This document shows positions 14,334 through 22,152 of a stretch of DNA of 64,000 bases, piece by piece. This DNA comes from Terriglobia bacterium (lineage in GTDB: Bacteria; Acidobacteriota; Terriglobia; Terriglobales; Acidobacteriaceae), in contig JAIQEU010000004.1 of assembly GCA_020073665.1 (NCBI GenBank), positions 397,234 through 461,233 of the forward strand. Direction: 5' to 3'. The number at the start of each line of letters is the position of its first letter. Position 1 is the stretch's first letter. The notes beneath the pieces are model-generated. The model saw only the letters and a list, made by a program, of their open reading frames with translations. It was not told where the DNA came from and ran no database searches. The translations under genes and the position numbers were made by a program.

Positions 14334-17009
14334 ATGGAAACCGTCACCGGGACGAGAATCCGCGACTTCAGGGTCCGCGGAAACTACTTTAACTGGCGCA
14401 GCCTCCTGTCCCGCCGGGACCTGCACTCTTCGAAGAGAGAAAATGTAGTTCCGAACTATCCTGGATATTCTCCTCCCGTCGTGGACTTCGGCCTTAACGA
14501 CGGCACAACCAGCAGTATCACGGTCGGCGAATCCGATATCCCTCTTCTGTGTGACGATGATACGGAGAAGGCGAAGAGATACCTTTCCCTGATTCTGCAA
14601 GCCCGTCAGGGCGACCCCGGCGCCGCCAAAGAGCTGTCTTCCGCCGCGCAGGAATATCCGTTTGGAGGAGGGGGGCGTATCCAGCCCTCCGAAAGCCCCT
14701 TCGTGGTTCCCTGCACCAGCAGTCAGGCCCACTCCGAGCAGGCCATAAGTCAAAAAGCGTTCATACTTCTGAAACTGTGCCAACTCGGCTATCCCGTGCC
14801 GGACTTTGTTGTGCTTACCGCGCAGGCCTACATCGATCGGGCTCAGCATCTTGAGAAGCATTTTGCGGAGGCCCTTAAGCAACTCGAGATCGTCACCATG
14901 CAGAACCTGGGGGATGACCGGAGCCCGCTGGTGTTCGCCATCCGCTGCGCCACGGGTCACTACATTCCTGGAGTCATGGACACCTACCTCAACGTCGGGG
15001 TGACGGAGAAAACGTTGCCCTGCCTGGAGAGGATGTATGGCCGGGTTGCCGCACACAAGATGTTTCTGAATAACTTGAGGAACCTCTGTCACGCGCTCGA
15101 CCGTGACGAGTACGCGCCGGTGGTCAGTGCCGTCAGGTCTGACCTCTCTCCTGATGAGGTCGCCCGGTTAGTGGAGCAGATGTCAGATATTCTCGGGAAA
15201 ACTGACCGAAGACTCATCGAGGATCCGTTTGCGCAAGCCGCCTTCTTGGTAGGACAGGCCTACAAGCATTTTGAAGAGAACCAGGAACTCGTACTCGCAC
15301 TCTGCCGAGGAACGGAACATTATCCCAGCCTCATTCTGCAGAAAATGATCTGCACGGTCCGGCACGAAAACGCTTATGCCGGCGTCATCTCCAGCCGCCA
15401 TACTCAGACGGGATTGGGTAGAGAGCTCCAGACCGCCCGCAATATCTTCGGCGAAGAAATGATGACGGGAGCGGCGGAGGTCGAATCCACCGTTTTTGGG
15501 GACAGAGAGGCCATTAAGGGCGTCTTTCCTGCCGTGTATCACTTCGCCCCCCATCTTTCCGATCTTGAAAGAGAGTTCGAGTCTCCGGTGACCATCGAGT
15601 TCGCCGTGGAAGCAACGGAAAGGTATCAGTGGTTTGCGCTCCTGCAACTCAATGAAACCGGAATGGCAGGTCGAGCCGCCCTCACCTCGGTGGTGGACAT
15701 GCATAAGTCGGGGACGATAACCCGCCAACGGGTGGCCGAACTCATCCGGCCCTACCACATCCGGCAGCTGACCAGCGACACCATCGACCAGGAGGTTTTC
15801 GACACGCTCCACAGTTTCTGTTCCGGCGTGCCCGTTCTACCCAGATCCGCCGTGTCGGCTCGCGTTTATTTCACGGGCGAAGACGCTTTGCGAGCCAAGA
15901 GCCAGGGAGAGAAGGTGTGCCTGTGTAAGAAGAACTTTGTCCCGACCGACACGGTCGTGATGCGCGAAGTGGACGCAATCATAAGCCTGACCTCGGCTGC
16001 CATCCATGTGGTCACGATCTGCCAAAGCCTGGGTATCCCAGCCCTGCTGAACCTGGAGAAGAACGGAGTTTCGTTACAGCCGGGTGGTGGCCTGGTCAAT
16101 TGCCGGGGAAAGGAAATCAAGGAAGGAGACTGGATCACGATTTCGTCGAGACGCAGATCCCTCTACGAGGGGAAAGCCAAGTTCACGCCAGCGAGGCTCT
16201 TGCGCTACATGAAAGGGGAACCGGTCCAGATGGACGAGGATGAAAGAAGAGCCTTCGCTTCCATCGCCTACGCGTACCGCTACTACCAGCAGCTGACCAG
16301 GGGCCTCGAGGTGGACCAGATTTCCACCCTCAGCGAAGTTACCCGGCTGGTGAATTTCGAACTCCGCGGGGAATCCGAGGAGGCAAAGCAACTTGTAAAC
16401 GGCTGGTTCGACGACCGCGAGACCCTGTACATGGAAGAGGTTTTGAAAAGCGATATTGGCGACCACCTGGGGCAAAGCAACGTCTTCGACCGGCTCACCC
16501 TCGACCGGAAGGTCAGGTTCTTCAAGGCGGCTCTGGCAAAATGTTCCCGCAATCATATCTCCGGCTACGAGGCGGGTGCCTTCATGCTGGGCCGGTTCTT
16601 GTCTTCGCGCTATCCCGTCGCTTTCTGGAAGTGCTTCAGCCCCTCAGAAATCGGTTTGCTGGTGAACGAGTGGGTTCTCTTCGAGAAGTACATGCAGCTT
16701 CTGCACAACGTGGGCGAGAGGAAAGTCCTTCTGGCTCGTAAACAGATTCTCAAGGACGGGCTCGGCCAGATCGCGCTTCACCCGGGCAACGTGCAGTGCC
16801 TCATCACGCTTAAGCTGAGCGGCGCACGCTTAGAGGAGGCCCGGGAGTCCCTGCCCACATGGACCGATCCCCAGTCCGTGAGGGTGCTGGAGCTTCTGCA
16901 GCAACCCTACCGTGCTTTTTATGACTTCAATGCAGCCTGGTCCGTGAGCCAGCTCGAGAAGATCTGCCGCGAGGAAAACCTTCCCCTTCCCCGTCCGGAA
17001 GCCACCTAG
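14334..17009 (+). CDS. PPDK-like protein lacking the PEP-binding barrel (ATP-grasp plus phosphohistidine domain)
   Basis: An 891-aa protein related to pyruvate phosphate dikinase. After about 130 residues of unknown kind, the ATP-grasp region starts (LLKLCQLGYPVPDFVVLTAQAY, 146-166), with PGVMDTYLNVG at 212-222 matching PPDK PGMMDTxLNLG, and AYAGVISSRHTQTG at 347-360 matching the GTGVAFTRNPSTG lobe. The mobile phosphohistidine domain is at about 498-615, with the expected catalytic His at H558 in TSAAIHVVTICQSLGIPA, although the usual GGMTSH context is altered. The C-terminal PEP/pyruvate TIM barrel is absent; residues about 630-891 are a helical region I cannot assign. The acceptor may therefore not be pyruvate. 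The gene is convergent with the M50-enolase gene, and a CRP-like site lies 102 bp upstream. No good ribosome binding site is seen at the ATG. Confidence 0.82.
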   Translation: METVTGTRIRDFRVRGNYFNWRSLLSRRDLHSSKRENVVPNYPGYSPPVVDFGLNDGTTSSITVGESDIPLLCDDDTEKAKRYLSLILQARQGDPGAAKELSSAAQEYPFGGGGRIQPSESPFVVPCTSSQAHSEQAISQKAFILLKLCQLGYPVPDFVVLTAQAYIDRAQHLEKHFAEALKQLEIVTMQNLGDDRSPLVFAIRCATGHYIPGVMDTYLNVGVTEKTLPCLERMYGRVAAHKMFLNNLRNLCHALDRDEYAPVVSAVRSDLSPDEVARLVEQMSDILGKTDRRLIEDPFAQAAFLVGQAYKHFEENQELVLALCRGTEHYPSLILQKMICTVRHENAYAGVISSRHTQTGLGRELQTARNIFGEEMMTGAAEVESTVFGDREAIKGVFPAVYHFAPHLSDLEREFESPVTIEFAVEATERYQWFALLQLNETGMAGRAALTSVVDMHKSGTITRQRVAELIRPYHIRQLTSDTIDQEVFDTLHSFCSGVPVLPRSAVSARVYFTGEDALRAKSQGEKVCLCKKNFVPTDTVVMREVDAIISLTSAAIHVVTICQSLGIPALLNLEKNGVSLQPGGGLVNCRGKEIKEGDWITISSRRRSLYEGKAKFTPARLLRYMKGEPVQMDEDERRAFASIAYAYRYYQQLTRGLEVDQISTLSEVTRLVNFELRGESEEAKQLVNGWFDDRETLYMEEVLKSDIGDHLGQSNVFDRLTLDRKVRFFKAALAKCSRNHISGYEAGAFMLGRFLSSRYPVAFWKCFSPSEIGLLVNEWVLFEKYMQLLHNVGERKVLLARKQILKDGLGQIALHPGNVQCLITLKLSGARLEEARESLPTWTDPQSVRVLELLQQPYRAFYDFNAAWSVSQLEKICREENLPLPRPEAT

Positions 17010-19402
17010 ATCGCATGGGCCACTTCAAGGACCACCACCGCTGACTTGATCCCGTAGAGATGATCGCGGTCAATCGTCGATTCCATCTCGCGCAGCACCT
17101 CGGGAAGTTCCTTACCGTCCCTCGCGGCCACCAACCGCCCGAGTGCGAGTGAGAGCGACAGGACCGCATTCATGCCCAGATTCGCCTTTCTCTGCATGAT
17201 CTGGATCTTCTCTTCTGCCGAGGCGAGACAACCCTTACCGCCGTACCGTTTGGCCCTCATCCACAGGTCTGCCAGTTCGCGATTCTCCTTCGTGATCGTC
17301 TCCCCCTTGATGTTGCCGGCGAAGCGATAGGTTTTCTCTTTTTCCTTGAACACGAAATAGTTGGGGAATTTTCGCGTCAGGGGATTGGCCTCGATGATGC
17401 TGTCCACCAGGTGGACCGCCTCATCCGTCCCCGCCGAGGTGCCCAGGGGCGTGGCCGCAGTAAATTTCATCCCGTTGTCGAGCATGACCACAACTCCCAC
17501 CGTCGGTATGCCGGCGTTGGTCGGCTCCTCGTGAGCAGAGATGTCGGCGATGGTGATATCAGGATCGAGTTTCCGGGTAATCTTTGTACCTTTCTTCGCC
17601 ATTTCCATCAGCTCGACGATTCTTCCGTACTTGACCAGCCTCTCCGTGTTCGCCCCACCCCCACATTTCAGGCCCAGGGCGCCAACCGCGAAACTGATGT
17701 CGGCTTCCATAACCTCGTTGGGAGACTTGGATCGGTGCGAGACCACCAAGGCAAGCCCCAACTGCTTCGCCTTACGAGTGGCCAGCAGGGTCTCACTGAG
17801 AGTGCCGATCTGGTTGGCCTTGATCAAGGCAGTATTGATGAGCCCCTGTTCGGCGCATTTCTGGATGGTCGAATCCTTGGTCGTAACCAGATCGTCCCCG
17901 ATAATGAGGATCTCCTGGTCGAGGGCTTTCATAAGTTTCTTCCAGCCCTCGAAATCATCCTCCGCGAAGGGGTCTTCCAAAGAAACGATAGGATATTTCT
18001 TGACCCAGCGAAGGTACAATTCCACCATTTCGTCCGTGGTTAAGACCTTGGGATCCTCGGCTCTCCAGAAGAGGTATTGGCCAACCGACTCTTTCTCGCC
18101 GGTTTTCTCCCGGTAGGCATTGCTGAGTTCGCTGGCGGCGGGATCGAGCGCGAGACAAACGTCGCGGTCGGGGACAAATCCGCATTCTTCGATAGCTTGG
18201 ACGGCTACCCTTAGTGCCCTCTCTTCCGGGAGCAGGTCACCCTCCTGCTTGGCGTAGGAGGCGACGATGCCTCCCTCCAGGCCAATACCCACAAAATTGA
18301 GCCCTTCCGTGTCTTGGATAATCTGGATCGCCCGGCTTTGCAGCAGGTTGGTGACCCGTTGGGCCTCAATGTAGTCCTTGGCGGTAAGTGGTAGGAACAT
18401 CAACTCCTGGAAACTCAGGTTGCCGCCCATTTCTTCGGTGTGGCGACCACCCATGATGGAGTTCCGGAACTCCCATGGGGCGAACACGAATGTTCCGTCG
18501 GCGAGTTCCAGTTCCTGAAGCCGGTGCAGCCGCAGCTTACGCCTGAGTTCGGATGGCTTGACCGGACGCGCTTCTTGCGTTTCGCGAGCCGGTTCTGCCG
18601 CCCTCACTTCCGCCGCCTTGGCCGCCGCCTCTCGCTGCCTCTCCCGGAAAGCCTTGTATTTCCCTGCGTCCGAGAGCAGGAAGTCGAAGAGCGCCACAAC
18701 GCCAACGGTGAACAGCAACCTTCCCCCGTAGACCGCCGCCGGATACGCTCTGTACAAGCCAAACAATATCAGGGCGATTCCTGGCAAGAACGTGGCCTGG
18801 CTGAGCACTTTGCTCGCCTTTGGCCCCGCGGCCGAAACCGCCAGGTTCTGGGTCTTGACGCCGGGGTGGTAGCTCCCCGACTCCTTATGTACCCCCTGAA
18901 AGGCTCCGTACGGGATCTTCACGAACATCTCGACATACCAGAGCCACCTGCCCAGCAGGCCTTGCTTCAGTTTTTGCTCGGCAGGCCCCGCCAGCTCCGG
19001 TCTCAGGTTGTTGGTTTTGACGGCGGATAAGTAATGGCCCATCTCGTGGATGGCGATGTTCGAATGCCATGCTGCGTACCACATCAGGCAGGAAATCACC
19101 ACTTCAACGCTCAGGAACATTTCACGCATCACATCGAATCTGGTTCCCACGTGAAGAGGGATGCTGAGCAACGAAGTCAGGAAAGCGGCATGAAAGGAAA
19201 CCAGCTTATGGTTGGCGATGATCCAACCACGATCCAGACGCGGGGTGTCGCTCGGCGAGGGGATAAATGTGAACATACGTCGCTCCGGGAGCCCGCGCAA
19301 CGATCGACCGATCCCGGTCAAGAACTGTTTCCAGCGAATACCGGCATGTCGATGCATAACGTTAACAAGGGGACCTTCAAACGGCGCGCGGGGCTTCAGC
19401 AT
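17006..19402 (-). CDS. Membrane M50-like protease domain fused to a circularly permuted enolase
   Basis: A 798-aa two-part protein, numbered from the ATG at 19402 (GGAG 6 nt upstream; a TTG at 19432 would add 10 residues). Residues about 60-250 carry hydrophobic segments and the zinc motif HEMGH (119-123), like site-2/M50 peptidases. A charged linker (about 250-300) leads into an enolase TIM barrel (about 301-602) with the expected active-site residues: H321 (GGRH), E333 (FQE), E376 (LEGG), D420 (ALD), E476 (SLED), D503/D504 (GDD), K528 (LIKANQIG), H556-R557-S558 and K579. The enolase capping domain then follows at about 616-790 (GIPTVGVVVMLDNG, GTSAGTDEAV, NLGMNAVLSLSLA), although it precedes the barrel in normal enolases. 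This suggests membrane-tethered 2-phosphoglycerate/PEP interconversion. The call rests on motif alignment by eye. Confidence 0.85.
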   Translation of the reverse strand: MLKPRAPFEGPLVNVMHRHAGIRWKQFLTGIGRSLRGLPERRMFTFIPSPSDTPRLDRGWIIANHKLVSFHAAFLTSLLSIPLHVGTRFDVMREMFLSVEVVISCLMWYAAWHSNIAIHEMGHYLSAVKTNNLRPELAGPAEQKLKQGLLGRWLWYVEMFVKIPYGAFQGVHKESGSYHPGVKTQNLAVSAAGPKASKVLSQATFLPGIALILFGLYRAYPAAVYGGRLLFTVGVVALFDFLLSDAGKYKAFRERQREAAAKAAEVRAAEPARETQEARPVKPSELRRKLRLHRLQELELADGTFVFAPWEFRNSIMGGRHTEEMGGNLSFQELMFLPLTAKDYIEAQRVTNLLQSRAIQIIQDTEGLNFVGIGLEGGIVASYAKQEGDLLPEERALRVAVQAIEECGFVPDRDVCLALDPAASELSNAYREKTGEKESVGQYLFWRAEDPKVLTTDEMVELYLRWVKKYPIVSLEDPFAEDDFEGWKKLMKALDQEILIIGDDLVTTKDSTIQKCAEQGLINTALIKANQIGTLSETLLATRKAKQLGLALVVSHRSKSPNEVMEADISFAVGALGLKCGGGANTERLVKYGRIVELMEMAKKGTKITRKLDPDITIADISAHEEPTNAGIPTVGVVVMLDNGMKFTAATPLGTSAGTDEAVHLVDSIIEANPLTRKFPNYFVFKEKEKTYRFAGNIKGETITKENRELADLWMRAKRYGGKGCLASAEEKIQIMQRKANLGMNAVLSLSLALGRLVAARDGKELPEVLREMESTIDRDHLYGIKSAVVVLEVAHAI

Positions 19403-19575
19403 GGCGTGCTCCAGTGAGATGACGTTGGCCAAGCTAGACTGGCTACTCAGCGGCAGCGCTGCTATTCGTCCGCACTCCGCAGACTTGCTGCCTCAATTCG
19501 AGAATTACTCATTAAATCAGCTTGGAATCAGCGTGCATTCCTCTCAGATTCTCTACGGTAGGCAGCTGCTCGGTC

Positions 19576-19848: not shown

Positions 19849-22152
<2,304 letters not shown>

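Follow-up and report, generated by a model that had tools for sequence, protein, structure and literature searches.

Circularly permuted enolases fused to an M50-like membrane region form a widespread bacterial family and are probably membrane-held enolases

Few enzymes of central metabolism are as conserved as enolase, which is known as a soluble protein of fixed domain order, with the capping domain (Enolase_N, PF03952) before the TIM barrel (Enolase_C, PF00113). We know of no described member of the M50/site-2 proteases that carries a metabolic enzyme as a partner domain. Here we describe a gene that joins the two, in a stretch of 64,000 nucleotides (the window) from a Terriglobia bacterium of the Acidobacteriaceae (GenBank assembly GCA_020073665.1, contig JAIQEU010000004.1, positions 397,234 to 461,233 of the forward strand). 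Its product consists of an M50-like membrane region, an enolase barrel and an enolase capping domain, in that order (Table 1). The gene belongs to a conserved, widespread family of circularly permuted enolases and is not peculiar to its genome. Judging from sequence and predicted structure, members of the family are probably true enolases that interconvert 2-phosphoglycerate and phosphoenolpyruvate (PEP) and would be held at the membrane by the M50-type domain. If so, the family would offer a rare instance in which an enzyme of glycolysis has been rebuilt and relocated to the membrane, in one clade that spans many phyla and is apparently able to displace the canonical gene.

The reading frame on the minus strand is open between a TTG at 19432 and the stop codon at 17006 (808 amino acids), and the 798-residue version from the ATG at 19402 begins at the same methionine as the close relative P0001. 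Residue numbers are counted from this ATG and are identical to those of P0001 up to residue 726. A preliminary description, made from the letters of the window, had read the protein as a fusion of an M50-like region with an enolase in which the barrel precedes the cap, had taken residues 616-790 for the enolase N-domain and had expected a new linker between the old termini; all of this was borne out. Pfam searches gave Enolase_C (190.9 bits, 4.1e-56) followed by Enolase_N (36.0 bits against a cut-off of 35, 9.5e-9), with the HEMGH motif, the invariant aspartates and a weak Peptidase_M50 match ahead of the barrel. The model of P0001 shows the barrel's C-terminal helix (585-604) connected to the first capping-domain strand (617-626) by a linker of 12 residues. 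The permutation would thereby set the entry strand of the barrel beside the membrane region and leave the cap at the free end.

Table 1. Positions of the permuted enolase gene, its parts and its convergent partner in the window.
Feature	Positions	Strand	Basis or remark
Permuted enolase gene: M50-like membrane region, enolase barrel, enolase capping domain	17006..19402	-	798 aa from ATG
M50-like predicted membrane region (residues 56-270)	18593..19237	-	Weak Pfam Peptidase_M50; predicted helices in P0001
HEMGH (119-123), HExxH zinc-binding motif	19034..19048	-	H, E, H invariant in 85/85 aligned members
DFLLSD (240-245), candidate third metal ligand D240 or D245	18668..18685	-	Both Asp invariant in 85/85
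Enolase TIM barrel (Enolase_C, residues 304-610)	17573..18493	-	Holds H321, E333, E376, D420, E476, D503, D504, K528, H556-R557-S558, K579
Enolase capping domain (Enolase_N, residues 618-766), active-site loop Ser656; incomplete in window copy	17105..17551	-	Pfam, alignment
Junction: 49 capping-domain residues (147 nt) absent relative to relatives	17224..17225	-	Comparison with homologues
Convergent partner: dikinase-like protein, ATP-grasp and phosphohistidine domains, no detected PEP/pyruvate barrel (891 aa)	14334..17009	+	Pfam, alignment, model
Partner H558, aligned with the phosphorylated His of pyruvate phosphate dikinase	16005..16007	+	Invariant in 23/23
Overlapping stop codons of both convergent genes (CTAG)	17006..17009	.	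Sequence

A search of 5.8 billion proteins, with 7993 candidates scored, yielded 1020 homologues at E ≤ 0.001. The best 120 of these were listed; each has both enolase domains, and their source names, where given, are "enolase" or "hypothetical protein". When 84,980 named genomes were scanned with an N-terminal-region alignment, 128 relatives turned up, and 80 of them were retained. All 80 are metagenome-assembled by title, and they come from Terriglobia and other Acidobacteria, Elusimicrobia, Deltaproteobacteria, Planctomycetota, WOR-1, WOR-3, Cloacimonadota, Fermentibacteria, Krumholzibacteriia, Aminicenantes and others. Within the phylum of the window, at least 11 of 297 genomes carry the permuted protein (G000, which is the window's own genome, G073, G121, G265, G088, G226, G203, G113 and G095, together with the divergent G069 and G090). 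Removal of three duplicates (L058, L068 and L060 of L133, L084 and L144) and of L069, which has no M50 region, reduced 92 loci to 88 distinct ones. M50-like region, barrel and cap follow one another in all 75 distinct loci in which both enolase halves are readable, the remaining 13 being interrupted by contig ends, frame breaks or masking. A fusion of two genes in assembly was considered as the source of the layout and is ruled out, because relatives across many phyla have the same one.

For a tree of 125 rows, the halves were rearranged to canonical order before alignment, and nine canonical loci were left out. The 75 permuted rows make up one side of a branch with SH-aLRT 100; by this measure the permuted enolases are one clade, whose root within the canonical enolases the quick tree search does not resolve. 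Several canonical rows sit on long branches, and the stem between the permuted and canonical clades is long. Among plasmid records, none covers 80% of the permuted protein at a single site; the 1115 that match do so in part only, at less than 60% identity, and the five listed are annotated eno. Among the listed matches of a full-text search of 5.39 million open papers, with subscription papers and preprints outside its scope, there was no description of a permuted M50-enolase protein, which agrees, as far as those matches go, with the preliminary description. Two loci depart from the pattern. L069:6971-9397 (G143:C4) encodes an enolase of canonical order (364-804), preceded by an N-terminal extension of about 360 residues without a Pfam match at E ≤ 0.01. 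L063:1-2911 (G090:C59) encodes a divergent relative with HMxxH, no alignment at the enolase catalytic positions and a second M50-like stretch beyond the cap, and appears to be a degenerate or repurposed member.

Like canonical enolase, the permuted protein has both Pfam domains above cut-off (matched at E ≤ 0.001 in 50 of 50 members tested), retains the tested catalytic set, and has a barrel that superposes on the canonical one at a root-mean-square deviation of 1.8 over 278 residues of predicted structure. Unlike it, the permuted protein has the barrel first, is fused to the M50-like region, is only about one third identical in the barrel, and falls into a separate clade. The catalytic residues named in the preliminary description are present in the window protein, and 13 active-site residues are shared without exception by the 85 family members aligned; their yeast counterparts, with roles that we take from canonical enolase, include S39, H159, E168, E211, D246, E295, D320, K345, H373-R374-S375 and K396. 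A second alignment, in which the E295 equivalent was not placed, gave conservation in 76 of 77, the exception being the divergent L063. Enolase activity is likely, to judge from this invariance, the fold and the genomes in which no other enolase was found.

The genome of the window (5.42 Mb, 62 contigs) does contain a second eno of canonical order, on another contig (G000:C54), which settles a question raised in the preliminary description. Among 50 genomes, of the 80 named loci, that were tested for a canonical-grade Enolase_C match, 16 gave none, one of them with a weak further match of 32.6 bits. G265, a genome of the window's family rated 100% complete, has the permuted form only, and adding it to the 16 gives 17 permuted-only genomes. 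PGK was found in 16 of these 17 and pyruvate kinase in 8, some only partial; pyruvate kinase was also found in 8 of 8 further permuted-only genomes. In the planctomycete order of G332, the permuted form is present in 15 of 118 genomes. Six of these were read as loci and nine more were fetched; eight of the nine have all three parts, and the ninth, where the contig ends, has both enolase parts. On the criteria of score and frame length, with a weak 25-bit match in G405 not counted, canonical enolase occurs in 4 of these 15 versus 94 of the 103 genomes without the permuted form. One of the 4 is a broken fragment (G419), and fragments alone account for at least two of the 94. Fisher's test gives p = 1.7e-7, or 6.7e-7 without those two fragments, values that ignore shared ancestry and uneven completeness.

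Two of the permuted-only assemblies are of chromosome size. Only permuted enolase was found in G332 (CP070678.1, Phycisphaerales, 5.84 Mb), where PGK, iPGM and pyruvate kinase are present, and in G449 (a single contig of 6.2 Mb), where iPGM and pyruvate kinase are present, and the permuted protein is therefore likely a working enolase. In some bacteria it would likely replace the ordinary enzyme, with a membrane-tethered enolase converting 2-phosphoglycerate to PEP and back, and it would account for the seeming lack of an ordinary enolase in some genomes of planctomycetes and candidate phyla. Elsewhere a canonical eno lies directly downstream of the permuted gene on the same strand (L094, L100, L104, L110, L114, L118, L124) or convergent to it (L064), and some bacteria thus encode both enolases side by side.

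The N-terminal region resembles M50/site-2 proteases in its HExxH motif within a long predicted helix (99-129 in the P0001 model) and in invariant aspartates that end a later helix (H119, E120, H123, D240 and D245, each in 85 of 85). The motif was found in 87 of the 88 distinct loci, and a precomputed PF02163 match exists for 32 of the 120 listed homologues. The region differs from these proteases in scoring below the PF02163 cut-off in the window and in having a metabolic enzyme as its partner domain; the score in L065 is 24.2. Most simply, the N-terminal part would be a membrane anchor. Invariance of the motif suggests that the metal centre is used, and the M50-type centre may be a still-active intramembrane metalloprotease, perhaps clipping, releasing or regulating the enolase. 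Proteolytic or stress control of the enzyme, which the preliminary description had raised, would be conjecture. The family makes the tethering and proteolytic control of a glycolytic step at the membrane accessible to experiment.

The convergent neighbour of the permuted gene, not mentioned in the preliminary description, encodes a dikinase-like protein. Like pyruvate phosphate dikinase (PPDK), it has ATP-grasp and phosphohistidine domains, and its H558 aligns with what we take to be the phosphorylated histidine of PPDK. Unlike PPDK, it has no PEP/pyruvate barrel by Pfam up to E = 1, and the family profile covers PPDK residues 18-515 only; its C-terminal part is mostly helical in the model, the position matching PPDK residue 337 is not Arg, and its TIGR01828 score of 124.9 bits is far below the cut-off of 843.45. 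Such a partner adjoins or is fused to the permuted enolase in 34 of 62 testable distinct loci (8 fused, 20 convergent, 6 otherwise); in 26 of the 88 loci the flanks were too short to judge. The four-nucleotide overlap of stop codons recurs in 7 of the 20 convergent loci. The dikinase-like gene as a general partner was rejected, since 28 of the 62 testable loci, with flanks longer than 3 kb at both ends, have none there. All seven planctomycete and WOR-3 genomes tested gave partner scores of at most 66.6 bits, compared with at least 1325 in three positive controls, and no true orthologue was found in the 6 of 6 that have permuted enolase only, so that the partner is not required there. The permuted-only G265 and the genome of L089 do hold it.

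Because the genes adjoin or are fused, the permuted enolase of Acidobacteria and some other lineages may act together with the dikinase-like ATP/phosphohistidine protein, and this partner, fused to the enolase in eight loci, hints at an as yet undescribed connection of PEP formation with phosphohistidine chemistry. A bolder version, which we regard as improbable, would make the two a single membrane-bound phosphoryl-transfer machine, in which a PPDK that lost its own PEP barrel uses the enolase barrel instead, an ATP-derived phosphohistidine is exchanged with a three-carbon acid on the enolase, and the intramembrane protease can cut the complex loose. Variants of the partner were also seen. 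Fused proteins of the L133 or L144 type have about 2100 residues. In the fused protein of L058/L133, residues of about 870-1640, between the enolase cap and the dikinase-like part, have no Pfam match above cut-off, and the same holds for a long region (residues 1-670) of the separate partner at L061:5741-9280. In the WOR-1 loci L106, L120 and L134, a gene for a diverged dikinase-like protein (848-922 amino acids) lies upstream of the permuted enolase gene and shares its strand; L106 has the usual partner as well.

Several results weigh against a membrane-held glycolytic enzyme. Canonical enolase is also present in 34 of the 50 carrier genomes, so the permuted form is often not the sole enolase, and G297, of the same genus as G265, has both, so that a gap in the assembly may explain why none was found in G265. 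Among the 17 permuted-only genomes, 9 have no pyruvate kinase match and one has no PGK match, and iPGM was found in 7 of 13 permuted-only genomes tested; these gaps indicate that several of the genomes are incomplete or differently wired. The NCBIfam enolase equivalog TIGR01060 scores 228.6 bits, in two stretches, below its cut-off of 300. On the membrane side, Peptidase_M50 (PF02163) reaches 17.7 bits in the window against a cut-off of 27.2, Pfam M50 matches at E ≤ 0.001 occur in only 15 of 50 relatives, and a crude hydropathy scan of P0001, whose model shows long helices, marks only residues 199-247 as membrane-like, with the HExxH helix excluded.

One unlikely alternative makes the enolase part a module that is non-catalytic or moonlights, for example a 2-phosphoglycerate/PEP sensor that controls the M50 protease, with canonical enolase doing the metabolism. 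The carrier genomes with both enzymes, the seven loci with a canonical eno directly downstream on the same strand and the invariance of every tested M50 position are as such a sensor would have it. A sensor, however, could do without some catalytic residues, whereas the 13 tested are retained by every one of 85 aligned members, and no other enolase was found in the 16 carrier genomes and two chromosome-size assemblies described above. We also think it rather unlikely that the protein is an enolase-superfamily enzyme with another substrate, made near the dikinase-like partner, and not a glycolytic enolase. The long stem branch, the missed NCBIfam cut-off, a partner without a detected PEP barrel, and GLEGG adjoining the catalytic Glu in the window protein and its near relatives, versus GDEGG in the canonical enolase of the same genome, would fit such an enzyme. 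The tested residues that presumably bind or act on 2-phosphoglycerate, among them the His-Arg-Ser triad and the second catalytic Lys, are nevertheless kept; in one planctomycete order most genomes with the permuted form gave no canonical enolase; and the six permuted-only planctomycete and WOR-3 genomes tested have no true orthologue of the partner, although G265 and the L089 genome have it. A true enolase held at the membrane remains our preferred reading of the family.

The window copy is not the intact example it had first been taken for, with 49 consecutive capping-domain residues missing in frame. The block is present in 119 of the 120 listed homologues, the sole exception, P0002, being the window's own entry. 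P0001, P0003 and P0004 match the window protein with 0-1 mismatches, yet carry the extra residues. The gap spares the tested catalytic residues and removes helices of the capping domain in the P0001 model. With these residues missing, the window copy may be inactive or impaired, or the assembly may be wrong at this place. That the layout itself is an assembly or pseudogene artefact, as this gap might lead one to suspect, is very improbable: it recurs in every readable locus, and the three identical or nearly identical proteins are complete, so that only the gap may be artefactual. No convincing repeat that could have mediated the loss was seen at the junction in the window's gapped DNA. A capping-domain loss in L139 was also considered and was withdrawn, the letters of that locus being masked.

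The next gene upstream of the permuted enolase (19849-22152, minus strand) has a product that joins a malic enzyme with a domain of phosphotransacetylase type (malic, Malic_M and PTA_PTB in Pfam), a layout that we take to be the known MaeB type. Another gene of C3/C4 metabolism thus lies beside the permuted enolase.
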